Positions 6,401-64,000 of a DNA stretch of 64,000 bases are shown one piece after another. The notes below the pieces were generated by a model. The model did not search any database. It was not told where the DNA came from and was given only the letters and a program-made list of their open reading frames with translations. This DNA is from Cannabis sativa (taxonomy: Eukaryota; Streptophyta; Magnoliopsida; Rosales; Cannabaceae): NCBI RefSeq assembly GCF_029168945.1, contig NC_083605.1, forward strand, positions 35,043,280-35,107,279. Direction: 5' to 3'. A program made the position numbers and the translations under genes. Each line of letters starts with the position of its first letter. Position 1 is the first letter of the stretch.

Positions 6401-8319
6401 GAGCTTATCGTGTTTATAACATGAGAACTCAAACTGTTTTGGAATCAGCTAATGTGGTTGTTGATGATTTTAGAGATTTTTCGAGTTTTCCACGAAGCCA
6501 AGATAGATAGTCTCATGGATACTCCTAGAAGTTGTAACGACGATCCCGATGCGGCGAGAACCCCGTGCCGATGCCGCAAATGATGAATCGTCAGCTGCAA
6601 CCGAAACTCGGAGAACCGTAACCGTCTATCTCGACTCATCCAAACATCATCACCGACTCTATTCGTAAAGAACCAAGCACCAGAGTCAAACTGAATCATC
6701 CAAAAGATCTCATCCTTGGAAATCCTGAAGAAAGCATGGTAACTCGCAGAAGGTATATTAATTTAATCAGCTTTCTTTGCTTTGTTTCTCAATATGAACC
6801 GAAAAATGTGAAGGAAGCCATGACCTTTGAGGAATGGCTCAATGCAATGCAAGAGGAACTCAATCAATTTGTTCGCAACAAGGTATGGATTTTGGTCAGA
6901 AGACCAAAAGGTATAAATGTTATTGGAACAAAGTGGTTGTTTAAAAATAAAAGTGATGAGTTCGGTACAATTGTGAGAAACAAGGCTCGTTTGGTGGCAC
7001 AAGGGTACACACAGGTAGAAGGTATTGATTTTGATGAAACTTTTGCTCCTGTTGCAAGATTAGAATCAATTCGTTTACTTTTGTGTATTGCTTGTATTCT
7101 GAATATTAAATTGTTTCAAATGGATGTGAAATCTGCCTTCCTAAATGGTATTTTGAATGAGGAAGTTTATGTTGAGCAACCAAAAGGATTCGAAGATCCT
7201 CAATTTCCAGACCATGTATACAAACTTGAAAAAGCTTTGTATGGTCTGAAACAAGCTCCTCGAGCTTGGTATGAAAGGTTGACTCAATTTTTACTTTCTC
7301 ATGGCTATCACAGAGGTAGTGTGGATAAAACTCTTTTCATCAAACGTATAAAATCTGATTTTATCATTGCTCAAATTTATGTTGATGATATAGTTTTTGG
7401 TTCTACATCTAACCATGAAGTGCAGGTATTTGTTGATCAAATGAAAAGTGAATTTGAAATGAGCATGGTTGGTGAGCTTAATTTCTTTCTGGGTCTTCAA
7501 GTGAGACAAATGGAAGGAGGTACATTTGTATCTCAAAGCAAGTATGCTAAGAACCTTGTCAAGAAATTTGGCCTTGAATCGGCTAAGCAGGTAAGTACTC
7601 CTATGAGCACCACACTGAAATTAACAAAAGATGAGAATGGAGTAAAGGTAGACACTACACTCTATCGTAGCATGATTGGAAGTCTTTTGTATTTAACTGC
7701 TAGTCGTCCTGATATCTGTTACAGTGTGGGAGTGTGTGCTAGATATCAAAGTAATCCTATGGAATCTCATGTATCAGCTGTAAAAAGGATTATTAGATAT
7801 GTTAATAGCACTCCTGATTATGGAATTTGGTACTCGAAAGATACCAATTCAAATCTTGCTTGTTTTAGTGATGCAGATTGGGCAGGAAATGCTGATGATC
7901 GAAAGAGCACAAGTGGAGGGTGTTTCTTTCTTGGGAATAATCTAGTATCTTGGCATAGCAAGAAACGAGAATTCCATCTCCTTATCCATCGCCGAAGCTG
8001 AGTACATCGCTGCTGGCAGTTGTTGTACTCAACTATTGTGGTTGAAACAAATGTTGATTGATTATGGGTTTGAATTGGGTGTTTTGACTATTTTTTGTGA
8101 CAATACTAGTGCCATAAATATTTCCAAAAATCTTGTTCAACATTCTAGAACAAAGCACATTGACATAAGACACCACTTTATCAGGGAACTTGTTGAAAAT
8201 AAATCATTGCAATTAGAATATGTTGATGCGAAAAACAATTAGCTGATATTTTCACAAAGGCCCTAGATGCAAGTCGCTTTGACTCCCTCAGAAAGTCTTT
8301 GGGAGTTTGCATTGTTTAA
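3451..8319 (+). pseudogene. SIRE-1 gag-pol, broken
   Basis: The likely start is the ATG at 3,451 (protein begins MSFFAEGSS), 45 bases after the primer site. Gag comes first, with a CCHC knuckle (CRECEGFGHIQVEC, 4,321-4,362) and a Lys/Glu-rich, probably coiled, tail. A damaged stretch at about 4,830-4,930 ends that frame at 4,860. A second knuckle (5,045-5,086), the aspartic protease DSG (5,237-5,245), the HHCC and core of integrase (5,392-6,261), RT with YVDD (7,378-7,389) and RNase H to the stop at 8,317-8,319 follow in shifting frames. Breaks seen: a frame change near 5,392, an in-frame TAG at 6,262-6,264 where SIRE-2 has Trp, a damaged linker at about 6,500-6,700, and a frameshift near 7,975. 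Products would be particle and replication proteins; this copy cannot make an intact polyprotein. Confidence 0.92.
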
Positions 8320-8575
8320 TTTTATCTGTTCATAATTCTTGTACAATAGTATTATGTGATTCATCTCTAGCTCTTAATCGTCTATCATTGTATTTTGACA
8401 AATCATGTTTATGCTTTTGGTTTATAATTAGTTAGGATCTCAGTCTGATCATACTTTGTGATGTTGTGCTAAAAGGTTCATGTTACTCTTTATGTGTGTC
8501 TAGGATTAAATAATGTTCTTATACAGAGTTGAGCAATTTTTGTTTCAGTCTTGTCAGGCCCCTTGCTGGAATAGA

Positions 8576-8692
8576 GCTACCCATACTGAGGTGTGAAAGC
8601 CATCTGATGAGTAAGCTGGAACATTGTAATTAGCAACTATGATGAGGATGCACTACCATAGAAAAGGGCTACCTTCAGTATGGTGTGAAAGC
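8576..8692 (+). other. Paired GCTACC-N9-GTGTGAAAGC motif after pol (SIRE-1)
   Basis: Two copies of the pattern GCTACC, nine bases, GTGTGAAAGC lie at 8,576-8,600 and 8,668-8,692, 67 bases apart. The flanks are direct repeats, but the centres CATACTGAG (8,582-8,590) and TTCAGTATG (8,674-8,682) are complementary, with one G-U pair. They could therefore form a 9-bp stem around an 83-nt loop. SIRE-2 has the same arrangement at the same distance from pol with different centres (46,456-46,571). No known name is recognised. Confidence 0.75.
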
Positions 8693-9352
8693 ATCCAGTT
8701 GCGGGATCAAATTGAAAAAGGCGAAAATGAAAAATCTTGCCAAGGACAATGATCCTATTTTCACTGCACACACTTCTGTCTGACAAGTGTGTTCAATTCT
8801 GTAAGTCTCCTCTATTAAAATTAAATTGATAATCCTGGTACACAATTTTCAGTAACATGCATATCTTTTTCCTTAACATCAATTAGTATGATTATTTCAT
8901 GAGATACTAATTAGTTATTTTCCTTAAAAGCATAACATGTATTTTATTTTGTCAATTGTCAATGATATTTGATTTCTTTGCTTGATTCGAATCACATATA
9001 TTTATTGTACACATTGTATTTTATTTTCGGTTTTAATTAAAAAAAATAAAATAAAAAAAATAATAAAAAAAAAAGAGAGGGAGGCGTGTGACTTGCTTCA
9101 TGGGTCAAGAAAATCTTGTGCATAAATGGTAAGTATCAACATTCATTCTTCTTTGATTTATTTTTGATATGTTTCCATTTAAAGATTGATCTTTTATATG
9201 TAATGTGTCTTTAGTCTTGAAAGATTGACTTATTTTTGGAAATATTGTTGGTAATTCTAGTTTCCTTTTATTTTTTTTTTAAAAAAAAAGGGGAAAGAAG
9301 TTGCAAGGAGTGGGCAGTTTCCTTTTGTAATCGTGGGCTGGTGGTTTCTCAA

Positions 9353-13924: not shown

Positions 13925-16900
13925 TTACAATGATCTAAACCAATCCAACTCTTGCTGCCCAATTTTCTTAGGCAAAAAGCTATATATTCTTTGTTTTACC
14001 ATTTCTTTAACTGTACATACAACTCTGTCTACATTACCTACTTTTGAGTTCCATATTTGATCATTCCTAGCCTTCCAAACATGGTACACTAGGCTTGACA
14101 AAGCAGCCGAGAGCACTTGTTTCCTAAACTTGCCGCCTTTTCTTCTTTCTATCCACCGGGTGAGCCTTGTGAAATCCAAAGAGGATGCATTCCACTCTAA
14201 CCAGTCTTTGATTCTTTGAAGTCCCTGGCTTGAAAAGGAGCAAGAAAAGAAGAGATGCTCACAAGTTTCAGCATGATTTTTACACAGTACACACATGGGG
14301 TCATCAATAATTCCAAACCTGTGAAGTTTCTCTTTTGTTCTCAATCTTCCTTGAATTGCAATCCACATGATGAAACTAGTTTTGGGAGTGTGAAGCCTCC
14401 CCCAAACTTCATTACTCCAATGGACTCTATGCTTTGGAGGAACAAGTAGCTTGTACCCGAGGGAGATGTAGTACTTGGATTGGGTAAACTGTTGAACATC
14501 AACCAAGTCTTTAACTTGGTTCTTGGCCTCCACTACCTTATTCCAGTACCAACTCCCCTGAGATGGGGCCTTGTAGCCCCACCAATCTTCCTCCCAAATG
14601 TACACACTATGAACCCATTTCATCCACATATTATCTTCTTAATTTGCAATTGCCCAATTATACTTGAACACTGCAGCTCTATTCCCTTCTGCTACCCTTT
14701 TGAATCCAATACCACCTTCTGATTTTGTTTGACAAACAGATTCCCATGCAGTAGGACCCGAACCATTCATGGTGCTCTGTCCCTTCCACAAGAAGGCTCG
14801 GCAAATAGCTTCAATCTCATTAATCACCTTCTTAGGTAATATCATTATTTGACTCCAATATGAATGGATCGCCATCAGCACCGAATTCACTAAGACTGCT
14901 CTACCCGCAAAAGATAAGTTCCTGGAGCTCCAGGTCTTGATTCGAGAAGTCATTTTCTCAGCCAGCAATATACATTCCTGCCCTGAGATTCTTTTAGCAC
15001 ATATCAGGACACCCAAGTATTTGAAAGGTACATCCTGCCTACTAAACCCAGACATATCCAGTATTCTTTGAATTTCTCCATTTTGCATACCACTGAAATA
15101 AATAGCAGATTTTGTAGGATTAGGATGCAAACCTGAGGTGCAAGAGAATAACTTCAATCCTTGTAACATGAGGTAGACACTCTTAAAATCACCCTTGCTG
15201 AAAAGTAGCACATCATCAGCAAAGCTCAAATGATTGAGTTTGAGTCCTCCACATCTTTAATGGAATTGGAAATCCTCCCTAGCTCCAATCTTTTGCATTA
15301 TTCTAAATAAGTACTGCATTCCCATAACAAAAAGCAATGGTAAAATGGGATCTCCCTGTCTTAGACGTCTTCTGAATTCAAAAAATCCATGTAGAGTACC
15401 ATTAAACATGAGAGAGAACCTTGGTGTCCTAACATAGTTCATGATTAACTTGATGAACTCGCTAGGAAACTGGAAGGCCTCCAACATTTCTTCTATGAAG
15501 TCCCACTCAATTGTGTCATATGCCTTCTGCAGGTCCAGCTTAATCATACAGTTTGGCTTAGCATTTCTCCTCACATAGTGTCGTATTATGTCCTGGCATA
15601 TCATAACGTTGTGAGCTATGAGCCTCCCTTTTACAAATCCACTTTGATTCTGACCAATAAGGCTAGGTAGGATGTTCTTTAGCCGGGAGCATAACATTTT
15701 GGTGGCAATTTTGTATATGACATTGCAACAAGCAATGGGTCTGAAGTCCTTTACTGTGTTCGGGCACTTAACTTTGGGTCTAAGAGTAAGCACTGTAGAG
15801 TTTATCTCCTTCAAAATGTTCCCTGTAGTCAAGAAAGAATCTACTGCTTCATAAATATCATTCCCTATTAGCTCCTAGTTGTCTTAGGAAAAATAGCTAG
15901 AGAAACCATCAGGGCCTGGCGCTTTGATTCCTGGAATTGCAAATAAGGCAGCTTTAACATCTTCTTTAGTAAACTTCTCCAATAGCATTTGTGCTTGCTG
16001 GTTGGAGACTTTTGGTCCCATGTTAACTACTTGTTTCATCACTTTTCTCCTGTGATCCATTGTAGTACCCAACAGAGTCTTATAATAACTAATAAAGGCA
16101 TCTGTTACCTGCTCCGGTTTCTAAGTTGGGGTGCCATCTTATTGCTCTATGGACCAAATTCTATTTTGCCTCCTCTATCTCTGAGACTTGCATAGAAAAT
16201 AGAAGTATTATTATCCCCTTTTTTCACCCAGGAGACTTTCGCCTTTTGTTGCAACATCGACATTAAGTCCCTATGGGACTTTAAAAACCGCTGTCTAGCC
16301 TCCATTTCTGTAGATTGTAGCATCTGGTTTCTCGGGTCTGCCTCTAATTTGGCCTGGCAGTCGGCTAAATCATCCTTAGCTCTGGCTTCTGCAACATGTA
16401 TGTCAGAAAAACCACTCTTGTTGATCTCCTTGAGGACCCCTTTCAATGCTTCAAGCTTTGAGGTAATCTGGTACATCTTTGTTCCTTTAATTTTCTGCAC
16501 CCACACCTCTCTAATCTTCCTATCATAATCCGGGTGATTACTCCACATCCTAAAATACTTGAAGGGTTTCCTCCCATTAGGTATTTCAGGATGTATTGTA
16601 AGCAGCCCCGGAGAACGATCAAAGATTCCTTCGTTTAGAAAAAGTGCTTCAGCCGTCGGAAACTTAGTGATCCAACTTGGATTAGCAAGGATTCTATCAA
16701 TTTTTGAATAGATCCTATCCCCTTTAGGTTGTTTGTTGTTCCATGTGAAAAAATTACCACTTGCTTTAACATCTTCTAGCTGACATTTCTCAATACACTC
16801 TATAAATTTAGCAGCCTTATGAAACTTTACTCTATCTCCCACTCTTTCTTCTCTAGAGAGAATCTCATTGAAATCCCCCATGACTAACCAGGGATCTTGT

Positions 16901-17289
16901 GTTGCCAACTCCATTAATTCCTTCCACAATTCTTTCCTTCCATCTTTATCATTCACGGCATATATAAAAGTAACAAAGAACCTCTTCTTCCCATATACCT
17001 TTGTCACCAAGCTATGATTGAATTGAATTCCACATTTAAGAATATTAACCATGAAGCTATTAGGATTCCATGCTAACGCTATCCTTCCCCCCGCATGCCA
17101 TGCTATATTCGACGTAAAACACCATCCACAAAAAACACTAGTATACAAAGCCCCAAATTTGGGAGCCTTGACTCTCGTCTCAAGGAAACCAACTAAACCA
17201 ATTTGTTGTTGAGCAATAAATTGCTTAACTAGTAATTGTTTTTGTTGGTTGTTGATCCCCCGGACGTTCCAACTCAATACTTTATCCAT
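13925..17289 (-). pseudogene. LINE ORF2: endonuclease, reverse transcriptase, zf-RVT
   Basis: The start MDKVLSWNVRGINNQQ (ATG at 17,287-17,289) is the typical beginning of an APE-type endonuclease; GDFNEI and the rest of this domain run to about 16,200. RT motifs follow: [41 protein letters not shown] and FADD (15,212-15,223). The C-terminus (13,925-14,629) has the Cys/His cluster of the zf-RVT type (MCVLCKNHAETCEHLFF). The enzyme would nick target DNA and copy the LINE RNA. The frame is interrupted near 16,140, 16,075-15,884, 15,840, 15,240 and 14,635, so it is dead. Confidence 0.85.
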
Positions 17290-18658
17290 TAGGAAGAAGA
17301 GGACCTCCCCCTCCTCCAGTGTTCTGCAATTCAATCTCTATGTTCTCCCCTATTCCATGTCTCTGCAGTGGCATACCAACATCAGTTAATTCATCTTCAA
17401 CCTGGCAGCAGCTAGTCGATACTGTAGACAACACCTGAAGAGTGTTAGTCGTATCTGTCTTCAAACTAGGGGATTTTTCTTTGACTTTCCAAACTTTCCC
17501 AGCTGGTAAAGAGCCATCTGAGTCTTCTAATGGCTGCTTCCCTTTCTTTTTGTCTGCTGCATATTGCCCAGGAGCCGTGTCCCTAGTATCTTTGAGTACC
17601 CATTCCTGCTTCTGCCCTGTTTTGTTCTTACATTCTATTGTATTGTGCCCCAGCCCATAGCAATGACCACACTTTGTTGGCTTTCATTCATACTTTACTG
17701 AGACCTCCACATTGTTCCCATATTCATTTTCAAATTTGATTACAGCAGGGAAATCTTGATTCAAAGAAACTTCAATAAGAACTCTAGGATACAGTAGCTT
17801 ATCCCTTTCTTTAGTTACTTAATCCACCATCACCGGATTGCCTACTTGCCCTATGATCTTGAAAAGTGACTTCTCACCCCAATACTTCAGTTCTAGGTAT
17901 TCCATTTGAACCCAAATTGGAACTAAGCTTACATCTTGCTTCTAAAAATTCACATTAGGGTCCCAAGCCTTCATGATAACAAGCCTTCTATTAAAAAAGA
18001 TGTATCCCCCTGCTAAAATTTCATCCCTAACTGTTGTAGACTCGAATAGGATCAAGAAAATTCCATAGGCTATCATCCCAACCTTATCCACTTTACCAGG
18101 CCACATTCTTCTAGCAAATCCATCTAAGATTGACAAAGGTGGATTTGCCCCTAACACATAACAAACAATTGAAGGGGTCGAGAATGAGACCTCATCCTCT
18201 ATATCTTCCATCTGTATTTTCACTCTTTTCTTTTGTTCATTTGACTTAAAAGTGATAGCCAAATTCTTTCTAACAGATTCAGATCGCAGAACAGGGGGTA
18301 AAGATTCATTACCTTCCGAAATTTTCGTGGAGCAGAGTTGATTCGCCTGCAGAAAAAAGGCAAACTCCGAGCGAACTTCCTCTTGCTGTTGAATTGCTTT
18401 CAGAGATGATTTGGGGGATAGTGGTGCTTGAAACACATCCGTAATCTCCGGGTCTTCCAAGTTGTCGCCACCATCCTTCTCCTCTTCTGAAAACACAATA
18501 GGCTCCACGCCTATTTCGTCCATTGATTTCACCTCCCGAGCACCAGAACTCGAATTCGGCCCTTTCGTCTTCTTCTTCTTCTTTCCAGATTCTTGTTTCC
18601 CAGATTTGTTCGACCCCTGCGATGCCTTCCGGGGACGCCCACAACCTGCCACAACCAC
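17290..18658 (-). pseudogene. LINE ORF1, RNA-binding gag-like protein
   Basis: The ORF starts MVVAGCGRPRKASQGSNKSG at 18,658 and is open to 17,942 (238 aa): a basic N-terminus, an acidic stretch, then a DUF4283-like region with an aromatic-rich end. Downstream, in other frames, a CCHC knuckle, CGHCYGLGHNTIEC, is encoded at about 17,645-17,686. In plant L1 elements ORF1 binds the element's RNA. At least one stop and frame changes separate these parts. Confidence 0.75.
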
Positions 18659-20576: not shown

Positions 20577-21425
20577 AGGGCTTGTTTGGTACACCGTATT
20601 GTAATGTATTGTATTGTATTGTGTTGAATTGTGTTATATTATATTGTATTAGTATTATTTAATACAATACAATGTTTGGTATTGACTTGTATTAACTGAT
20701 TGTGTAAAGTTATAATATATTTTTAATACACTCGATCCCAACACCAACTACGAGTTCGAGTCCCGAGTACCAGGTCTGGGTCCACGTCCCGAGTCCGAGT
20801 CTGAGTCCGGAGTCGGGGTTTGGGTCGGGGTCCGGGTTTGGGTCTGGGGCCAGGGTCCGGGTCTTGGTCCGGGGTCCGGTTCTGGGACTAGGGTCCGGAG
20901 TCGGGGTCCTGGTCCGGGATGCGGGTCCAGGCCCGAGCCCGGGTCTGGGTCCAGGGTCCAAGGTCCGGGGTTCGAGGTTCGGGGTCCGAGGTCCGGAGTT
21001 CGGGTCCAGGTCCAGGTCCGGGGTCTGGGTCCTGGTTTGTGTCTAGGTCCGGGGTCCAGGTCCGGGTCTCGAGTCTAGGGTCGGGGTCTGGGTCTGGGTC
21101 CGGGTCCAGGGTCCGAGTCTGGGATCTGGGTCTGGGTACGGGATGCGGGTCCAAGCCTAGGCCTAGGTCCGGGTTCGGGTCCGGGGTCCGGGTCTGGGGT
21201 CCGGGTCTGGGTCCGGGTCCGAGTCTAGGTCCCAGGTTCAGGTCTGGGGTCCGGGGTCTGGGTCCGGGTTCGGGTCCAGGTCCCGTGTCCCAGGTCCCGA
21301 GTCCGGGTTCGGGTCCGGGCGCGGAGTCTGAGTCTGGGCGCAGGTCCAGGTTCAGGTCCGGGTTTGGGTCCAGGGTCCGGGTCCGAGTCGGGGCCCGGGT
21401 CTGGCGTCCAAGGTTCAGGTCCAGG
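20577..21425 (+). repeat. Insertion with G-rich GGGTCN hexamer array
   Basis: The left end reads AGGGCTTGTTTGGTACACC followed by TATTG repeats, similar to MITE ends, but no matching inverted end is seen on the right. From about 20,750 to the end the sequence is a degenerate hexamer array (GGGTCC, GGGTCT, GGGTTC, GGGTCG). Long ORFs on both strands (171 aa plus, 88 aa minus) are Gly/Ser/Arg/Val or Pro/Asp/Thr repeats and are translation artefacts of the array. Confidence 0.85.
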
Positions 21426-23484
21426 TTTGATTAGATATGTTAAATTTATCGTAATATATATTCAATTCAATATCACCTAGTTGATCCTAGATCAAATGAT
21501 CTTAATCCTGATATGATTAGGTTCGATCTCAAGAGTATTATACATGTTCTTTGATTTGTTAGTTAAGCCTACTTTTGGGTTAGGGTGATACGTACATTTT
21601 GGGAACATGATAGTATAATTGAGTGGGAGCGCTAAACATAGATTTGAAATCTATAACTTCTATAGGTATTTAGAAGTGAAACGATAATTTCCTTCGAGCT
21701 TGGCTAAACAGAGATAAATGGTTGAGTACTCATTTCACTTTGCTGAAATATCATTTATACGGAGCTAAGTGTTTTAAGAATAAAATACATTGTAGGGTGT
21801 AACGGTAATTTAGTCCCTATACAATGTAGATCATCTATTAGAGGATCATTGATCAAATTAGGATTATAATAATGGATAACTAATAGCGTATCTATATCGT
21901 GGAACATATAGAGCGTTCTATATGACTCAAAGTGCAATTCTAAGTTCTATGAGTGGATTCAACAAGGAATTAATAAGTTTGGGAATTTACTTGGTAAATT
22001 CGGTTCAGCATATTGGAAGCTCGGTTATATAGGCCCATGGTCCCCATACTAGTTGAGACCATACTGCTTGTAAGACTCAGTTAATTGATTTTAATTAATC
22101 AATTATAATTCTAAAATTAGACTATGTCTAGTTTATGAATTTTCACTAAGCAATGGCAAAATTGTGAAAAAAAGAGATTCTAGGTCTTATTTATTAATTA
22201 AGAGACTTTATTAGTCTAATTACTAAATATATTAAATAACAATATTATTTAATAATTAATTTTTAGTTATTAAATAATTGGAATTGGCATTTAAGTGGTT
22301 AAATTGAAAAATTGGCGTTTTTGAGAAAATGGGATGGAAAAATGACAAAATGGCAAAATTACAAAGTAGGCCCAATCCACAATCCATGGCCGGCCACACT
22401 TAGTGTAATTTACCATTTATTTTTCCACTATTTTAATGCCAAATAAATCTAACCTAAACCTAGGTGGTTACCTATAAATAGATAGTGATGGCTTAAGAGA
22501 AAAGATGATGGTACATCACATTCCTTCAGTAAAATTTTAAGCTTCTTTCTCTATAGGCCGAAACCACCATTCCTTCTCTTTTCTTCTCCAAATTTGCATA
22601 CCTTGAGTGATAGAGTGAGTGCCCATACACATCAAGTGCTATCTCAATCATAATGTGGAAGACTGTAAAGAATCCAACCAACAAGGAGAATCGGGCTTAA
22701 GAAGGAGAGAAAGAGATCCAGGTTCAGATCTTGATAATGCTCTGCTACAGAAAGGAATCAAGGGCTAGAGATCTAAACGGAAGGAGTCATTATATTCCGC
22801 TGCACCCAATCTAAGGTTTTCTTAAAACCTTATGTGTTTAATTCATTGTTTTAGAAATTCATATTAGGATGTTAATGAAACATACTTGTTAGTAAATCTA
22901 GATCCTGGTAAAATATTTCCAACAATAAGAGGCCTGAGGAGTCTCAGGCAATAATGCCAAAGCCGTAGGAGCCTTCTCCTTCAAAGAGAGCAGCATCAAC
23001 ATTAATCTTGATTGTATTAGATCTGGGTTTAGTCCATTGCTCAACCTTAGAGCCATTGATTGCAAGAGCCAATGACAATAAGTTTTATTTATCTTGAGCT
23101 TTGCGCCATTGATCAAGAGTAACTAATGCTGATGAAGAAACTTGTTGAGGAGAAATTCTTTTTTTATTCCAAACCATATTGTTGTGTGCTTTCCATATTG
23201 CCCAACATAGCATAATGATTCGACACTTTGTTTCCATATCAGAAGTATTTCAAACCTTATAGAGAAATGGCCCTTGTACACTATTTATTATTTTTTGCCA
23301 CATAACAAAAATTAATAATTTATTTCATTCTTTTAAAGAATTAGAAGCAAATTACTTAAAAATTATAGCATATCTATATTAATTTTGTTAATTTTTTTTA
23401 TTTGAAAGTTATGTCAATTTTTTTAATTTTTTATGAGTTGTTGTGGGTTTTTTTTTTTTTTTTTTTGAAAATGAAATAGAGACT

Positions 23485-26400
23485 TCATTGAAATTTAGCA
23501 TTCAGAGTACAAAAGGTCTTGAAGACAGGTGGTAAATTCTGAACATGAATCCTACAACCAGAAAAAAATCGAGAGTGCCTAGCCATATAGTGGGCAACTC
23601 GATTAGCTGATCGTTTAATAAAATTCAAGGAAACATGTGGAAGATGAGAAAGTAAAAGTTTACAATCGTTAACAACCAACCCAAAAACGGAGGATATACG
23701 ATGAGAGGTACGAATGGCCTGGACGGTGAGCATACTGTCAGTTTCAATCTCCACTTTATCCCAACCCTTAGTTTTGATCCAACTAAGGGCTTCCTTAACA
23801 CCTATTGCTTCGACAACTTCAGCAGAGAATGAGCCTCTGTTACATACTGCAATAGCATCCAATAAGAAGCCTGAGGAGTCTCAAGCAACAATGCCAAAGC
23901 CGTAGGAGCCTTCTCCTTCAAAGAGAGCGGCATCAACATTAATCTTGATTGTATTAGATCCAGGTTTAGTCCATTGCTCAACCTTAGAGCCATTGGTTGC
24001 AAGAGCCAATGACAATAAGTTTTATTTATCTTGAGCTTTGCGCCATTGATCAAGAGTAACTAATGCTAATGAAGAAACTTGTTGAGGAGAAGTTCTTTTT
24101 TTATTCCAAGCCAGATTGTTTCATGCTCTCCATATTGCCCAACATAGCATAATGATTCGAGACTTTGTTTCCATATCAGAAGCTTGGAACACATTGCATA
24201 GCCACATTTCTACTATGGTATTAGCAGCAGTATTTACCGTGGGGTGCGCATGACTCCAACAAGATTGAGCGAAGGAGCAGCTAATGATGGCATGAGAATC
24301 GATTCTGGTTGGCTTTTACATATGGGGCAGTTCGGAGAGATATCTACATGCTTGTTAACAAGCTGTAAACAAGTGGGAAGGGCATTCGAAACTACCCTCC
24401 ACATGAAGTTCTTGACTTCGCGAGGGATTTTTAGCTGCCAAAGTGTGCGCTAGAACCCAGAATTACTAGCACCATCTTCCTGGTTTGTTGATTTCTGTAG
24501 CAAATAATACGCACTTTTCACCGAGAAAGTGCCATTGCTTTCTCCTATCCATGACCAGCAATCATCACCAGCAGTGACATATAAAGGTAGCCCAAAAATC
24601 AAAGATGCATCTCGCATATTAAATATATCAGAAACAATCTCACGGTCCCATGAAAAGCTATCAATTTTGAAGAGGGAATTTACCATCTTATTATGCAGAC
24701 TCGAGTGAGTTGTTGTGACAAACGGATTGGAGTTGTCAGGTAACCAAGGATGAGAGAGAATGCTTGTGCTAGTCCCTGATCCTATAATACGTCTGGCATC
24801 AAGCTTAACAATGTCTTTTTCTTGCCATATACTCCTCCAGACAAAGCTTGGGTTGTTACCAAGTTCAGCAGCAAGAAAATCAAATCGAGAAAAGTACTTT
24901 GTTTTGTAAACATGGCTAACAAGACAGTTTGGTGAGACAAGTAGCCGCCATCCTTGCTTAGCAAGCATTGCAAGATTAAAATCATGTAGACGACGAAAAC
25001 CAAGGCCTCCAAGATCTTTGTGAACCACCATCCTGTCCCCGGACATCCAACTTATCCTGTTACCTTTAGTGGATGTTGTCTTCCACCAAAAGTTAGCCAT
25101 TAAATTTTCAATCTCAGTACAAATCTTAAGAGGAATGAGAAAAACACTCATAGCATAAGTAGGGAGGGATTGAATGACCATCTTGAGAAGTATCTCTTTA
25201 CCAGCACGGGACAGAAAATGACCATTCCAATTGTTGATTCGGTTCACCACCTTAGTTTTTAGGAAGCCAAGAATTTTTGTCTTTTTCCTACCCATGGTAT
25301 TAGGAAGGCCAAGGTACATGATGTGTTCATCAGCTTCAGTCATCTCTAGCATTGAACATATTTGATTCTTTAGCATTTGATCAGTGTTAGGGCTAAAGGA
25401 AATGGATGACTTAGTAACATTCACCTTTTGGCCAGACGCCATCTCGAAAGAATGAAGCAAAGCCCAAACATTCAAAGCCGCAGCAGTAGAAGCTTGAAAA
25501 AATAAGTAGTTATCATCAACAAACAGCATTTGTGATATTGCAGGAGCCCCATTAGCAACTCAACAGCCTTGAAGAAGTTGATTAGCTTCAATTTTTTTGA
25601 TGATTGAAGAAAACCCTTCAGCACAGATAATGAAGAGATATGTTGAAAGAGGCTCACCTTGACAGATACCTCGAGTTGGAGTGATAGGTCCCATAACATG
25701 ATTGTTGTGAACAATAGTATATCTGACCGAAGTAACACATTCCATAACAAGCTTAACCCATTTCTCAGCAAATCCCATACGGAGCATGACAGCACGCAAA
25801 TAATCCCATTCAACACGATCGTAAGCTTTGCTCATGTCAAGCTTTAAAGCCATGAATCCTTTTTTTTTTCTCTTCATTTCCGTTTCAAGTAGTGCATTAA
25901 TTCAAAAGCCACCATAATATTGTCTGAAATGAGTCGACCAGGTATGAAGGCACTTTGTGTTTCTGAAATAACAACATCAATCAGAGAACTCATATAGTTG
26001 GCAAGAATTTTAGCACCAATCTTGTAGGCTACATTGCAGAGAGCGATTGGTTGCAAGTCTCCCATGGAAGAAAAGTTTTTCTTTTTAGGAATAAGAACCA
26101 GATTAGTAGCGTTGAGTTCGCTAGGAAAGGCACCAGTTTCAAAAAAATCAGTTACTAATTTGACAATGTCAGTACCTACAATATCCTACTGTTGTTGATA
26201 GAAACCCGGTCCCATACTATCCAATCCAGGAGCTTTATCAGGATGCATTTGGAAGAGAGCTTGCTAGACTTCCTCTGCAAGAATAAGCCTAAGGAGATCT
26301 TCATTTTGTTGTTGAGTGACAGAGCATCGAATGTTCTCCACCACACTGTTACATATAGTTCCAACAGCAGTAAATAGAGCAGAAAAATAATCTGTAATAA

Positions 26401-41974: not shown

Positions 41975-43200
41975 TGAAATTCCGTATTTTAATATTCCCA
42001 GTTTGATTATTTAATTAAATGATTAATTAAATGCGGAATAGTAAAACTGGTACTGAAAACAGCTTTCTGTAGTTACAGAATGCAACTCTGTAACTCCAGA
42101 GAAACCCAGAAAAACAAACAGTGCATAAAAGTAAAAACACACAAGATTTTTGTACGTGGTTTCAACAATCCTTTCAGATTGTTACTAGTCCACGGGGCCA
42201 CGCCCAGAGATAAGATTCATTAGATCGGTATCAAAAATACAAAGTAATTGACTTATGCATAAATAGACTCCCTCTTATTGTATGCCGCAAGCTTGATGTA
42301 TTCCACCTACTAACCGAATCTTGATAAAACTCCAAGTGCTCGAACTCCCTTCGATCACCTTGAAGAGTGCTTGAATCCTCCCGATTCAAGGCTTAAAGGC
42401 TATCTCCCGAAAGCCTATACAACCATCTCCCGAAGGTTGTGTGCTTGTATCCTCCCGATGCAAGACTTCAAAAGCAATCTCCCGAAAGCTTGTAAATACC
42501 CTTCTCCCGAAGGTGCACTGATGTTCTTCTTCGTTGTAGACTTGAATACAGACTCAAGACAATACAAACAACAAATAAACAGAGTAAGAGTAGAACAACT
42601 CTTCTCTACAAATCAAAGACTCTCTTTTCTAAAGATATGAATGAAATTCAAAGATACAAGAGAGGTACCGAGAGAGGTACTAAACAAAGACACTCTTTCC
42701 TTAAGATATGAAAGCAATTCTAAGTGTATGAAAGAGATACAAAACCTAGCAGCTATGAGATGTATTTATAATGAATATACATCTCATAGACAGCTTACAT
42801 TCGGTCTGAACAAGACCTCAACCCACTAGAAACTTCCCTAAAATAATTCTTCAATCAGTCCAGGAATTTCGTTTCGTACCTACGTAATCGTGGGCAGTAA
42901 CTACAACTTTCCTTTTATAGAAAAGGAAAGTTTAGCTCCGGTTTTCTCTTCAAGAAACCTGATCTAAGAAAATGGGAAACTCAACACAAGATCAGATTAC
43001 ACAGCTGGTTAGATAAAAAACGAAATGGGTAACCAAACTTACCATTTTTACCTTTTTTCCAAAAATAGGAAAGCTAGACAACTTTCCTTTCAAGTTTGAT
43101 TTACACAAATATGGAAACCATATCAATATATGCCAGCCAAAATATACATTAAATAATAAAATATTTTTGTCAATTAAATATGCCAAAAATGGAATTAACA
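41975..43200 (-). repeat. SIRE-2 3' LTR
   Basis: 1,226 bp, ending TGTTAATTCC on the minus strand next to a polypurine tract. Carries the same hairpin array (42,370-42,513, plus-strand tips CTCCCG) as the other LTR. Confidence 0.94.
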
Positions 43201-43202
43201 AT

Positions 43203-43541
43203 CTCCCCCTTTGGCACTTTGATTGACAAAACATTTTATTATGAGAAAACCTGCATCAAGTGTTAGAAACCAAAGCAAATAGCTTTTTAAAGATACAAGA
43301 GTATAGAAAATACTCCCCCTGCATGAAAGCTCTCTAACACATAAAACATAGAACTTTTTTTTGGACGGAAAAGCTTGCAAACCGAAGAACACAACTTTTT
43401 AAATGGAAAAGTGTTAAACCACAAACAACTTTTTAAACGGAAAAGTGTTAAACCACAAACAAGCAACTCCCCCTAAAACCAAGGGTCCAGAGTTGTAACA
43501 AAGAGTTCAATGAATCCAAAAAAATATGACTACTCCCCCTT
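43203..43541 (-). promoter_or_regulatory. SIRE-2 multiple polypurine tracts
   Basis: Minus-strand GGGGGAG tracts at about 43,204-43,212, 43,312-43,320, 43,466-43,474 and 43,533-43,541. The first abuts the 3' LTR (AAAGTGCCAAAGGGGGAGAT, then TGTTAATTCC) and has the same context as in SIRE-1. Confidence 0.85.
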
Positions 43542-43641: not shown

Positions 43642-45326
43642 TTATTCATCATCATTGGGTCGGAAGTATTTCATGATGTTGTCCATCTTCCTAAGAAGCA
43701 AGGCCTGACTGGTCTCCATTCTTCCCAAACGCAAGTTGAATTCTGCCATTTCTGTAGGAGCAGAAGTGGAAGCAGATCCAGCAGCAGGATCATTTGTAAG
43801 ACCAGGGGAAGCAGACCGAGCCTTTCTTTGACCGGTTTTCCTTGAGGAGGCTTCTCAGGAATTTTGAAAGTGGTTCCAACAGCAGGCATCTCAATTGATT
43901 CATTCTCAAGAATCAATTCCTCTTGATCAGATAAAATTTTATAGATTAAGTGAGGAAAAATGAGATTGAGCCTAGGTTTCTTACCCTTTCGAAGAGAGAC
44001 AATTTGCTCCCAAATCATGTCAGCCAAATCAATTTTAGCACCAATTGAAACTTTATACAAAAAGAAAGCAAGTTCATTTGAAACATTTACCGGATTGGAG
44101 CAAGGAAACCAATTGGATAGGGCAAACCTCATGAGAGCAGCATGTTGATAGGTGAGTTGAGACATATGCATGGTGTCGGAGAGTTCAATTTCATCATCAC
44201 CAGAGAGATAACCGAACACCTTTTGACGATCAAACTCCACATCAGTTGGCTCAATTCCCATAGGCAAATTGAGAGCCTCAGCAACATCCTTCACAGTGAA
44301 GGAATACCAGTGTCCTCTGACAAAAACTTTGCCAAACATGAAAGAGTCCTCATCGAGAAACTCATCAGTGATGTTAGCATAAAATTCCTTCACAATTCTA
44401 TCCACATACCCATCAAAACCGATCAAGGTATCTACCCATTGTCTTTCTTTCAACATGTTATACACTCCAAAAGGCTTATGAGCAATAACATTAAAATTTT
44501 TCTCCACAGTAAAATTCCTATTCTCATAGAATTTCATATCTCTAGCATGATCATTATAACAAAAATAATGAGAGTGAGGCTTGAAGTTATCAAGAGAAAT
44601 ACCAGAGGGCCTCTTTCTTTTCTGTGGAAGAACAGGATTAGAGACAATGGGCCTTTTTCCTTTGTCCTTCTTTGGAACAGCAGGAGGCACTGGAGCAGAT
44701 TCTGTAGTGACAGGCTCAGTTTCTGGTTCTTCACTCTCGGATCCAGAATCATCAACAACAGGAAGATCTTTGGGCACAAATTCTTCACTTGAATCGGACA
44801 AGCCCTCTGAATCATGATCCTCCTCACTTTCTTCTGGTTCAGAATCCGAGGAAGAGACCGAAGGGGGATTCTCCTTGAGATTTTTGGCCTTTGAAGATGA
44901 AGAAACCACCTTTTTCCCTTTGGATGCAATTTTAGGTTTAACCACTTCAGGCTTTGAAGGAGTGGAAACCTTGGACCTTGTTCGAGAACTCACCGTGGGC
45001 AAGGTCACCAAAGCTTTGTCGACATTAGGAGCATCATTCGAAGAAGAGGACTTTGACAATGTGTGATCGGATGAATGGGATTCATCATGATCACCCAACC
45101 CAGGTGTTGGAGAAGCAATAGGAGAGGCACCAACAAGAGGAGATGAGAATTTTGCCACTGATTTTCGAGCTTGGGTCTTCGATTTCTTGGCAGACTTCGT
45201 CGGAGCAGAAGACGAACCAGAAGCTCCGGTTGCTGGTGCAGGCGGCGCAGGCGGAGACACCGGTGAAGCAGACGCAGATCCACGAGTGGGCTTCTTGGAT
45301 GGTTGGGCATTCTTAGTTTTGGCCAT
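43642..45326 (-). pseudogene. SIRE-2 ORF3, plant transposon-protein-like, one frameshift
   Basis: ATG at 45,324-45,326 (MAKTKNAQPSKKPTRGS). The first 230 or so residues are low-complexity: Ala/Pro/Ser-rich, then Ser/Glu/Asp-rich. A folded-looking part follows, with VKEFYANITDEFLDEDSF, KVFVRGHWYSF and EALNLP, resembling the putative plant transposon protein domain (PF20167 type, from memory). One base is missing in the A run at 43,836-43,839 relative to a continuous frame; the other frame leads to a helical Met/Leu-rich tail ending at 43,642-43,644. I see no signal peptide, transmembrane segment or envelope features, so nothing supports an env role. Function unknown. Confidence 0.65.
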
Positions 45327-46455
45327 TTTTTCTTTGAAACCCTAGAACACAAACCCTCTTACACTTTGAACAATGTTAGACCTTTGAGAGAAAAAATAAA
45401 AAGAGAAGAGAGAGTGGTGATCGTGGGATTATGGGAAGTTGAGAATATATAACTTTCAATTTTAAATGCCCAAATTAAAAAAAAATTGAAAAGGAAGGTA
45501 ACTTCCTTACCTTTGACCCACGTGTGGAAAGAAAAAAGGAAACCAAAGAAATGTTTTTCAAATGTAGTCAATGTTTCCTTAAATGGAAAAAAGGAAACCA
45601 ATTATTCCCACAAAATCTAAGAAATAATAACCCCACCAAATCCGAAAATGCCACCAACAAGGAAACCAAAAATAAAATTAATTATTTAAGAACAAGTTTC
45701 CTATATACACCGAAAAGACCAAATCTCCACAAATAAAGGAAACATTCTAAATAAGTAAATACAATTAAAACATGTTTCCATAAAAAAATAAAAGAAAAAA
45801 TATATACAAGGATTCGAAAATGAATTCAAAAAAAATATGCCCCCCTTTTTCTTTTATTTTTTCAGAAAATGCCCCCCAAAGAAAAATTTGCAAATAAGGA
45901 ACAAGAGAACACACCAAGACACAAAAGCACTAATCACCACTTAAGAGCAAAAATTGTGTCTAAGAACATAATGAAACATAACAAAAAAAAAAACAAAATT
46001 TTTAACAAAGCTCACTTGACAACTCGATCACGAACCTTGTTTTGTTTTTTTTTTTTTGTTTTATTTTTATTTTTGTTTTTTTTGTTTTTATTTTTTGATT
46101 AAAAGACAGAAAAAAAAAATAAAATAACCTTGATATTTTTGCAACTAGAATTCACAATGTCCATTTGTCTTTGTCCCTGATGAAAAAATCAAACTCATAA
46201 GAATAATCAGAAATTATTTTATCAAACTAATGAAGTAATAGAATGAGGTCATACCGGTTCACAGGAAAAATTGACTCCATCACCAAGAATATTAAAGCAC
46301 ATCAAACAGTATGTAATAGCTTTATAACACCATTTTCGAGAATAAACAAATTTTACCACAAACTGTGTCAAGCATTAGTGTGTGAAAGTGTAAGCAGGGA
46401 ACATTGCCCAATTTGTCAAAAAGACTTTTTCTGATAAATTGTACCCATAGGAGAC

Positions 46456-46571
46456 GCTGTCACACTACCTCAATGGTAGCCCTTTTCAATGGTAGCGTAT
46501 CTTCTACATAACTCCTAATTACATAGTTCCAACTTACTCAGAGATGGCTTTCACACATTGAGATAGGTAGC
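46456..46571 (-). other. Paired GCTACC-N9-GTGTGAAAGC motif after pol (SIRE-2)
   Basis: On the minus strand arm A is 46,571-46,547 (centre TATCTCAAT) and arm B 46,480-46,456 (centre ATTGAGGTA; the right flank is GTGTGACAGC). The centres pair over nine positions with one G-U. The arms are 66 bases apart and arm A lies 272 bases after pol. Only about three of nine centre positions equal those in SIRE-1, while the flanks are nearly invariant. Confidence 0.75.
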
Positions 46572-46843
46572 TCTATTCATCCAATGGAGCTTGAACACAC
46601 AGTTTTTTGAACAACATCATTCGAAAATGGTAGCTTACATAACACTGTTTGATGAACCTGAATATTCCTGTGAGGAGTGGACAATTTTCCTGACAAACCT
46701 GTATGACATCATAATATTACAACATTAGCAATAAAATAATGACTGAAATTCTTATAAGGTTGAAATTTTCTTCTAGGACAAAGACAAGACATTATGAACT
46801 CTAAGACAACTCAAATATCAAGGACTATGGAAAAATAAAAGCA

Positions 46844-51773: not shown

Positions 51774-53001
51774 TGAAATTCCGTATTTTAATATTCCCAG
51801 TTTGATTATTTAATTAAATGATTAATTAAATGCGGAATAATAAAGCCGGTATCGAAAACGACTTTCCGTAGTTACAGAATGCAACTCTGTAACTCCAGAG
51901 AAACCCAGAAAAACAAACAGTGCAGAAAAGTAAAAACACACAAGATTTTTGTACGTGGTTTCAACAATCCTTTCGCATTGTTACTAGTCCACGGGGCCAC
52001 GCCCAGAGATAAGATTCATTAGATCGGTATCAAAAATACAAAGTAATTGACTTATGCATAAATAGACTCCCTCTTATTGTATGCCGCAAGCTTGATGTAT
52101 TCCACCTACTAACCGAATCTTGATAAAACTCCAAGTGCTCGAACTCCCTTCGATCACCTTGAAGAGTGCTTGAATCCTCCCGATTCAAGGCTTAAAGGCT
52201 ATCTCCCGAAAGCCTATACAACCATCTCCCGAAGGTTGTGTGCTTGTATCCTCCCGATGCAAGACTTCAAAAGCAATCTCCCGAAAGCTTGTAAATACCC
52301 TTCTCCCGAAGGTGCACTGATGTTCTTCTTCGTTGTAGACTTGAATACAGACTCAAGACAATACAAACAACAAATAAACAGAGTAAGAGTAGAACAACTC
52401 TTCTCTACAAATCAAAGACTCTCTTTTCTAAAGATATGAATGAAATTCAAAGATACAAGAGAGGTACCAAGAGAGGTACTAAACAAAGACACTCTTTCCT
52501 TAAGATATGAAAGCAATTCTAAGTGTATGAAAGAGATACAAAACCTAGCAGCTATGAGATGTATTTATAATGAATATACATCTCATAGACAGCTTACATT
52601 CGGTCTGAACAAGACCTCAACCCACTAGAAACTTCCCTAAAATAATTCTTCAATCAGTCCAGGAATTTCCGTTTCTGTACCTACAGAATCGTGGGCAGTA
52701 ACTACAACTTTCCTTTTATAGAAAAGGAAAGTTTAGCTCCGGTTTTCTCTTCAAGAAACCTGATCTAAGAAAATGGGAAACTCAACACAAGATCAGATTA
52801 CACAGCTGGTTAGATAAAAAACGAAATGGGTAATCAAACTTACCATTTTTACCTTTTTTCCAAAAATAGGAAAGCTAGACAACTTTCCTTTCAAGTTTGA
52901 TTTACACAAATATGGAAACCATATCAATATATGCCAGCCGAAATATACATTAAATAATAAAATATTTTTGTCAATTAAATATGCCAAAAATGGAATTAAC
53001 A
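51774..53001 (-). repeat. SIRE-2 5' LTR
   Basis: 1,228 bp, TGTTAATTCC to AATTTCA on the minus strand. It contains the hairpin array (52,169-52,312) and the block GGGCGTGGCCCCGTGGACTA, which is identical in SIRE-1 LTRs. Confidence 0.94.
52169..52312 (-). promoter_or_regulatory. SIRE-2 LTR hairpin array with CGGGAG tips
   Basis: Plus-strand stems around a CTCCCG tip: CTTGAAT/ATTCAAG (52,169-52,189), AGGCT/AGCCT (52,196-52,215), ACAACC/GGTTGT (52,218-52,239), CTTGTAT/ATGCAAG with a G-U pair (52,243-52,263), AAGC/GCTT (52,271-52,290) and CCTT/AAGG (52,299-52,312). The tip is constant, the stems differ. The other LTR has the same set at 42,370-42,513. Confidence 0.75.
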
Positions 53002-62661: not shown

Positions 62662-63137
62662 CTCCCCCTTGGATGTCCATAATATAACTGCCTTATTAAA
62701 AATCTTGCTGAAAAATTTGGTCAAAGGAAAAAGAGTATAGTGTAAACTAACTCCCTCCCCCTCATTTAGGCATTTGTGGAGATCTTCTAATCGACGAATT
62801 TCGATCTTGTCTGTCGTCTTCTCAAATGTTGATGTTGGTAATAGCTTTGTGAATAAGTTTGTAAGATTGACACTTGATTGAATATGTTGAACACCAATAT
62901 GCATTTTCTTGAAGCGTATAAGAAGAATTTCGTGAAATGTGTTCTAACTCTATCTCCTTCAATGTACCTCCTTTTAGTTGAACGATGCAAGCAGTATTAT
63001 CCATAGAGAATTGCTTGGGTTGATACTTCTTTATTGAGTGCAATCCATATGTTTCCCGAATATGCTATGCCAATGATCTCACTCACACACATTCTCTACT
63101 TGCTTCATAAAATGCAAGTATGTTAACATGATTTATA
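62662..63137 (-). pseudogene. Copia RNase H end, family D
   Basis: Minus-strand frames give EASRECV (about 63,090), DNTACIVQLKGGTLKE (about 62,960-63,005), HISRNSSYTLQE, and VQHIQSSVNLTNLFTKLLPT STFEK-type end (62,800-62,890), the usual order at the end of copia RNase H. Stops and frame changes separate them. Confidence 0.75.
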
Positions 63138-63312
63138 GTTGCCTCGTTAAAAACCTTGCCAGAAAAACCCAGTGGGACAAAATCTGAGCTAGGGAAAAGA
63201 GTACAATATGTATTTCATATTCATAATTATTTGCAAGTTGCCTCGTTAAAAACCTTGCCAGGAAAACCCATTAGGACAAAACCTGAACTAAGGGAAAAAG
63301 AGTGCAACATGA
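63138..63312 (-). repeat. Tandem repeat of about 99 bp inside copia D
   Basis: GTTGCCTCGTTAAAAACCTT recurs at 63,138 and 63,237, with the following CCAGRAAAACCCAKTRGGAC and GGGAAAAAGAGT also repeated. It lies upstream (in element sense) of the RNase H end. Confidence 0.85.
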
Positions 63313-64000
63313 ATATGTCTCCCCCTCATGCACATATGATCCATAATTCTTTTGGTGATAATATATCTCATAAGATTATTGTTATCACTTTTAAAATATC
63401 ACCATATATAATCTTTGATCATATATTTTCTATAACTCTTCCAGAGTATGTATGGACTTCTAAATTATAGATGAGGGGTTCGTGGAACATTAGTCTTTAT
63501 CCAACTAATTGTATCATTCATGTGTGTACACAACTTTGTTCATACGAAAATTTAAAATTTCAAGTAGATATGAACATAACACATTAATGGTACTATAAAT
63601 TTTCATTTGTGACAATGATGGTACTCCAAGACCATATATTTATTCCATCTTGTTTTATGATCTTAATTTCCAAATCAAATGATCATATATTTATAATTCT
63701 TGATACATATGAAGTACTTCAGGACTTCAATACTAATGAACAAACTTTATACATTAATATTTCTCGAAATACAAAAGAAATAAAAGTTTGTTCTTCAATT
63801 AATCAAAAACTCTTCAAGAGTCTATCACAACGTATAATTTACGTATTTATATTGCATAGACAACCATAGGTATTTTTCAAATAATAATTTACTTACATGT
63901 CTTTATTTTATACAAAGATCTTTGTCATATAGTGCGCGCGACTTTGAATTTATATCACTTAAGACATGTATTAAATTCTTCTAGAATTTTTAGATAAGGC
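63313..64000 (-). other. Probable internal part of copia D, unresolved
   Basis: AT-rich with no clear protein on either strand. A CTCCCCCTC (63,321-63,329) resembles an inverted polypurine tract. The plus-strand ORFs of 86-104 aa have no recognisable features. The element probably continues past the window. Confidence 0.4.

Follow-up and report, generated by a model that had tools for sequence, protein, structure and literature searches.

Related elements and known Sirevirus motifs

The CTE of Mason-Pfizer monkey virus and SRV-1 lies outside the coding genes, downstream of pol. It is described as forming a stem-loop 150-175 nt long that contains two internal loops (PMC7551171), the loops being arranged in 2-fold symmetry with one TAP-p15 bound per half (structural passages of PMC4330393), and it takes unspliced RNA out of the nucleus (PMC4330393, PMC7551171). 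Cis-acting structured RNAs of LTR retrotransposons are likewise described for mouse, where the RTE of IAP and the MTE of MusD serve export, the MTE by means of a pseudoknot and kissing-loop pairing (PMC12786077). According to this December 2025 review, plants are said to employ TREX factors in place of NXF1, and no direct studies exist of how the RNA of plant LTR retrotransposons is exported (PMC12786077).

Sireviruses make up about 21% of the maize genome, as stated in part of PMC10760457. Their described non-coding motifs comprise polypurine tracts, an inverted repeat flanking the polypurine tract and CGG-CCG repeated motifs, the repeated motifs being short palindromes in the LTRs and upstream of env (relevant parts of PMC2829016), unlike the rod-shaped element reported here. 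The consulted parts of the open literature (PMC2829016, PMC12786077, PMC10309623, PMC10760457) name no such element for Sireviruses. In PMC2829016, these parts describe no twin GCTACC/GTGTGAAAGC element, and the string GAAAGC is absent from the main text.

Two Sirevirus-type elements

The window, i.e., the whole analysed stretch of 64,000 nt of Cannabis sativa DNA, contains two Sirevirus-type copia elements, E1 on the forward (+) and E2 on the reverse (-) strand. Sirevirus hallmarks are present in both: clustered AGGGGGAG tracts and a primer site of the initiator-tRNA type (TGGTATCAGAG; 3395, +, in E1 and 51761, -, in E2), which we take to be the Sirevirus primer site following the 5' LTR. E1 displays seven polypurine tracts AGGGGGAG between 9744 and 10221 (+), and its 3' LTR presumably begins at about 10230 (+). 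The LTRs of E2 (51774-53001 and 41975-43200, -) are 98.5% alike. The AGGGGGAG tracts before its 3' LTR are located at 43203, 43313, 43467 and 43533 (-); the one at 43203-43210 adjoins the 3' LTR, a feature shared with the known Sirevirus motifs.

The pol stop codon of E1 was assigned by eye, following the frame of its broken pol gene, to 8317-8319 (+). E2 harbours an ORF of 551 aa (43671-45326, -), envelope-like by position only, which begins some 1.1 kb past the rod described below. E1 is a decayed copy, and no ORF of at least 150 aa was found there between rod and 3' LTR. A partial copy of an E1-type element is located directly upstream of E1 (819-2271), with 819-1392 resembling the start of the 3' LTR and 1403-2262 the linker with the polypurine tracts; as this copy adjoins E1, the latter seems to be part of a recombined array.

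A twin motif with complementary centres

A sequence-only reading of the window had pointed to a GCTACC-N9 motif present twice, 67 nt apart, in the first Sirevirus, which is confirmed: both copies of GCTACC-N9-GTGTGAAAGC in E1 are exact (8576-8600 and 8668-8692, +; gap of 67 nt). The second element (there named SIRE-2) had been credited with the same twin and conserved flanks. The twin is indeed present in E2 with a gap of 66 nt (46571-46547, exact, and 46480-46456, -), but its flanks are not wholly identical, the latter copy having one flank mismatch (GTGTGACAGC). Complementarity of the centres was recovered for both elements, with 9/9 standard pairs including one G-U each (E1, centre 1 CATACTGAG at 8582-8590 and centre 2 TTCAGTATG at 8674-8682, +; E2, TATCTCAAT and ATTGAGGTA). 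The estimate that about six of the nine centre bases differ between the elements likewise agrees with the counts (6/9 in centre 1, 7/9 in centre 2).

Chance origin of the twin motif was ruled out by shuffles, a reversed-pattern control and the odds of centre pairing. Shuffling the window 100 times yielded no exact match and a mean of 0.13 matches with up to 3 mismatches. The genome search proposed alongside the sequence-only reading returned 1266 exact single motifs in 770 Mb of the own genome, compared with none for the reversed control pattern. A random pair of 9-mers of the same composition pairs at 9/9 positions with a chance of 1.4e-4. From the same genome, a small third family with paired centres (E3) was obtained via a pattern excluding the known centres. 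With patterns that left out the main centres of E1 and E2, there were 10, 3, 10 and 1 matches, by eye E3 or variants of E1/E2; a fourth family was not among these matches, the patterns spanning only part of the possible centres.

Scans of viral-contig and genome-contig collections outside the own genome produced 97 matches in 97 loci, which are taken as chance matches because a second copy was absent (91) or poor (6; at most 160 nt away, with 4 mismatches, the limit allowed). A protein search of the viral contigs confirmed no relative. The evidence for a rod in all three families comes from one genome.

Covariation of the centres

The filter was passed by 57 distinct twin units, mostly found via the motif pattern, so that at least one unit per copy is near exact by selection; centres, interior and stems were not selected by this pattern. 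Six loci lacked a twin according to the filter (L014, L122, L143, L154, L165 and L186): four of them (L122, L154, L165, L186) carry an interruption or deletion within or ahead of the second copy, and in L143 the second copy is mutated but kept. With L014 added by hand and L116 left out, the count covered 57 rows (37 E1, 16 E2, 4 E3). The exclusion of L116 from the pair counts relates to systematic-looking changes at CTG/CAG sites, judged by eye. Almost every CTG/CAG of this copy (G000:C1, about 52689043) deviates from its family, as if methylated CHG had been misread in the assembly.

Covariation of the centres, the check suggested with the sequence-only reading, proved extensive. Standard pairs occupy 96.5% of 511 cells over the 57 rows (not 513, since L014 and L152 have a gap in one centre), compared with 27-55% when the centre partners are slid by 1-3 columns, and two-sided changes occur in 8 of the 9 pairs, although the cells are not independent events because the rows are related. 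Pairing is complete (9/9) in 40 rows and reaches 8/9 in 15, 7/9 in one and 6/9 in one. Among the cells departing from Watson-Crick pairing, 53 are G-U and 12 are A-C or C-A, the G-U excess stemming from few inherited positions. Measured start to start, the spacing is 92 nt in 38 and 91 nt in 17 of the 57 twin units that passed the filter.

Between E1 and E2, six positions changed on both sides, and two more between E2 and the L016 form of E3. Under a simple model without a tree, survival of the 9/9 helix through an equal number of random changes from E1 to E2 has a chance of 1.7e-5; from E2 to the four E3 rows, random changes would do as well with chances of 0.003, 0.004, 0.018 and 0.056, L016 being the best paired of the four and the other three having been computed separately. 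Centre 1 of E3 reads TACATCAGT in one row and TGCATCAGT in three, and centre 2 ACTGGTGTA in two and ACTGGTATA or ATTGGTATA in the others; pairing is complete (9/9, with G-U) in two of these four rows and reaches 8/9 in the other two.

E2 copies chosen by their pol protein, and not by the motif, carry the twin in 48 of 50 cases within this one family. Specifically, 28 of the best 30 among 150 listed E2 pol-end matches have the twin, plus one with shorter spacing, as have 19 of 20 E2 loci from the lower end of the same 150 listed. The centres of these 48 copies pair 9/9 in 47 and 8/9 in one. The case is carried by E1, E2 and these unselected E2 copies. A spacing of 75 instead of 91 was observed in three E2 copies (L192 and two pol-selected loci); L192 lacks 16 nt between two GCTACCATTGA repeats within the rod, both units and centres being kept.

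Architecture and folding of the predicted rod

The position originally given for the feature, 8576-8692, does contain the twin, but the conserved unit is larger, about 8559-8705. Apical hairpin, outer stem and the possible two-fold symmetry arising from crosswise flank pairing had been missed by the earlier reader. Based on the MFE fold, the alifold and the extent of the conserved island, the predicted E1 rod (8559-8705, +; 147 nt) comprises an outer stem, unit A, the centre helix, unit B, the interior and an apical hairpin with return. The 5' arm of the outer stem (8559-8569) pairs imperfectly with its 3' arm (8695-8705) in the fold and is followed by the AATAGA strand of an outer internal loop (8570-8575), in which the majority base is equal in the three families at 6/6 positions. 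The GCTACC 5' strand of unit A (8576-8581) leads into centre 1, behind which lies the GTGTGAAAGC strand of unit B (8591-8600) with proposed U and GAA bulges. The two arms of the apical stem (8622-8631 and 8635-8644) precede a second GCTACC (8668-8673), proposed as the partner strand of unit B, centre 2 and the GTGTGAAAGC strand of unit A (8683-8692), for which the same two bulges are proposed. At either end of the centre, the fold sets a GCUACC against a GUGUGAAAGC from which one U and GAA bulge out. The E2 rod (46444-46588, -) measures 145 nt. In E1, 257 nt separate the pol stop from the start of unit A; in E2, unit A begins 273 nt beyond the pol ORF.

Just upstream of the E2 rod (46634-46589, -) a third unit-like copy, GCTACC - 28 nt - GTGTGTTCAAGC, was observed; none was seen by eye in E1. 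Two more possible hairpins (GGATCA...TGATCC and ACACACTT...AAGTGTGT, by eye) follow the rod in E1 (8703-8793, +), with similar but imperfect counterparts in E2 (identity of this stretch 0.33-0.40).

RNAfold of isolated E1, E2 and E3 (L016) sequences yielded a single long hairpin in which the centre pairs have probabilities of 0.80-1.00, and of isolated E3 L015 a different outer fold with centre probabilities of 0-0.68. The RNAalifold consensus of 9 copies with 22 nt flank is the rod, at -53.1 kcal/mol and a conservation index of 1.33. The real alignment surpasses every one of 300 column shuffles, whose energies average -28.7 with -38.7 as the best and whose index does not exceed 1.15, corresponding to z = -6.4 for the energy and 4.6 for the index. 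Folded in antisense, the alignment reaches -39.6 vs -53.1 in sense. With flanks of 22, 60, 100 and 150 nt the alifold centre probabilities stay near 1.0, and the index falls from 1.33 to 1.19, 1.12 and 0.85; at 100 nt flank the outer stem and unit A take other partners. The initial suggestion of a "structural or paired-recognition element" is thus supported within one genome by covariation, relative to the slid controls, and by the column shuffles.

Over the 57 rows, 93.2% of the apical-stem cells are standard, with two-sided changes in 2 of 10 pairs and with one pair being A-C in 34 of 57 rows. In the middle helix, two-sided changes occur in one of two pairs (pair 40-74). The outer stem forms in each of the three families with its own letters and was counted only for two invariant pairs. 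Sequence comparison supports a predicted 9-bp centre helix and, less strongly, a predicted apical hairpin in a non-coding island.

Stability of the single sequences is nothing special according to RNAfold (E1, z = -0.94; E2, z = -0.38), and their opposite strands score slightly better (-1.29 and -1.84, respectively). Mean centre probabilities with 40 nt flank are 0.60 in E1 (37 rows), 0.31 in E2 (16) and 0.35 in E3 (4), and with 100 nt flank 0.18, 0.06 and 0.33, respectively. Formation of the rod may depend on a protein, or the rod may alternate with a different fold.

The majority base is equal in the three families at 12/12 positions of the GCTACC strands, at 11/12 paired positions of the opposite unit strand (23/24 for both strands together) and at 6/6 positions of the U/GA bulges, compared with only 1/18 in the centres; part of this likeness of the units follows from the search itself, as the unit pattern was the means of finding most copies. 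Flank pairing amounts to 676 of 684 cells crosswise vs 675 within copies, and since the unit helices hardly vary, their pairing is without covariation support, L126 being the single row that changes both sides of a crosswise pair.

A conserved non-coding island

E1, E1b (L121), E2 and E3 were aligned from the pol end onward to obtain an identity profile. E1-E2-E3 identity is 0.53-0.65 over the pol end, drops to 0.10-0.28 in the linker leading up to the rod and rises to 0.53-0.72 at 8551-8707; past the island it is 0.33-0.40 to about 8800 and then mostly below 0.3. By this alignment, an island of about 147 nt is about as conserved between the families as the pol end, unlike its flanks. A coding function was ruled out because every sense frame of either rod contains stops and because the copy spacing (mostly 92 or 91) does not keep to a frame. 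A known RNA family was also rejected, Rfam 15 giving 0 matches at gathering score in the window; up to E = 5, a single weak match was obtained within 8300-9000, at 8811-8887 on the other strand.

Proposed function and alternatives

The reading tentatively favoured, at slightly less than an even chance, is that of a structured cis-acting Sirevirus RNA serving as docking site for a dimeric protein that steers unspliced RNA, with export as first choice. The rod would act in the sense transcript, where pairing of each GCUACC with the GUGUGAAAGC across from it would leave a U and a GAN bulged out. This would place two identical protein-sized sites on either side of the centre helix, related by two-fold symmetry. 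Fixed bulged sites mirrored across a helix of free sequence are what one would expect if a dimeric protein read the bulges and depended elsewhere on geometry only. Such a protein, possibly a host RNA-export (TREX-type) factor or the Gag of the element, could dock on the rod and mark full-length unspliced RNA for a cytoplasmic fate, nuclear export in the first place. The ranking of export or cytoplasmic fate before packaging/dimerisation, and of the latter before env expression, derives from the CTE-like layout, the 3' position and the reported use of TREX factors by plants.

The resemblance to the CTE concerns size and shape (one hairpin each of 147 and 145 nt, slightly under 150-175 nt), two internal sites in two-fold symmetry, which in the Sirevirus rod would follow from the proposed pairing, and residence in the 3' part, past pol, of the full-length RNA of a retroelement. 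The two differ in that the Sirevirus units are GCUACC / GUGUGANAGC, with the CTE loop AAGACA (as given in a passage of PMC4330393) having 0 occurrences in both rods, and in that the host is a copia-type plant element whose E2 rod precedes an env-like ORF. The rod is not filed as a CTE member, because the CTE loop is absent and receptor and function are only inferred. RTE and MTE are set apart by description, having other hosts and other structures. That the rod represents a plant counterpart of the CTE, i.e., an independently evolved, two-fold symmetric Sirevirus export RNA that recruits an export factor in plants, which are said not to use NXF1, has a fair chance but is less likely than not. 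A TAP_C search of the own genome gave no match, and the controls matched nowhere either.

Somewhat less probable still is a packaging or dimerisation signal, the Gag-bound rod selecting or dimerising full-length RNA, possibly with arm exchange between two RNAs. Full-length RNA includes the rod, and a Gag dimer would be well served by paired sites of two-fold symmetry. Known retroelement packaging signals, however, generally sit near the 5' end, and the titles and abstract openings found name no such signal for Sireviruses. An expression element for the env-like gene, acting in internal entry, splicing control or transcript ending, is more doubtful. It would agree with the location of the E2 rod between pol and the env-like ORF, about 1.1 kb upstream of the latter, and with the internal promoter upstream of env discussed by Bousios et al. 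(in part of PMC2829016). Yet E1 keeps the rod without a downstream ORF of at least 150 aa, even if the family of this decayed copy may have had one, and splice-site-like sequences beside the rod are not kept among the copies (by eye, uncounted).

Complementary centres would be explained equally well if each motif copy formed a hairpin of its own (GCU/AGC stem, 9-nt loop) and the two loops kissed, and within-copy pairing of the flanks equals crosswise pairing (675 vs 676 of 684 cells). A 9-nt loop wholly paired in a 9-bp kissing complex is strained, however. Moreover, the alifold optimum is a continuous rod with two-sided changes also in middle and apical pairs, and L126 changes both sides of a crosswise pair, so that kissing loops are regarded as improbable, even though such pairing is reported for the MusD transport element (sections of PMC12786077). 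Very little probability is given to an element acting at DNA level, i.e., a cruciform or a site for a transcription factor or recombinase. Direct repeats at near-fixed spacing (92 in 38 and 91 in 17 of 57) would suit paired binding, but binding has no need of complementary centres. Departures from Watson-Crick pairing are mostly G-U in the sense strand (53 vs 12 A-C, a count that comes from a handful of inherited positions), and the alignment folds better in sense than in antisense, a difference that the single-sequence z-scores do not share. Equally remote is a hairpin feeding small-RNA production, comparable to the palindromes in maize Sirevirus LTRs. Small RNAs are drawn to structured regions of maize Sireviruses (part of PMC10760457), but a long duplex would suffice for this purpose, leaving the duplicated units with invariant bulges and the free but paired centre unexplained.

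Under the favoured reading as a docking site, an RNA of about 150 nt with covariation support would be a concrete piece for the question of export in plants and a bait for the protein partner. The rod is a candidate for a new RNA family. With its free but paired centre beside fixed units, it clearly exemplifies an RNA whose letters appear to be kept only where they are read.

Further features of the window

Three further AGGGGGAG tracts at 62662-63319 (-) suggest another Sirevirus 3' end. In the 9.9-kb locus L240, covering the polypurine cluster near the right end of the window, no clear pol motif and no twin were found. A GC-rich, repetitive, SGPGPG-like open frame of 171 aa in repeated DNA (20919-21434) is probably no gene. 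Broken reverse-transcriptase and endonuclease frames, LINE-like by eye, are located at 13925-18658 and 24450-25529 (-).
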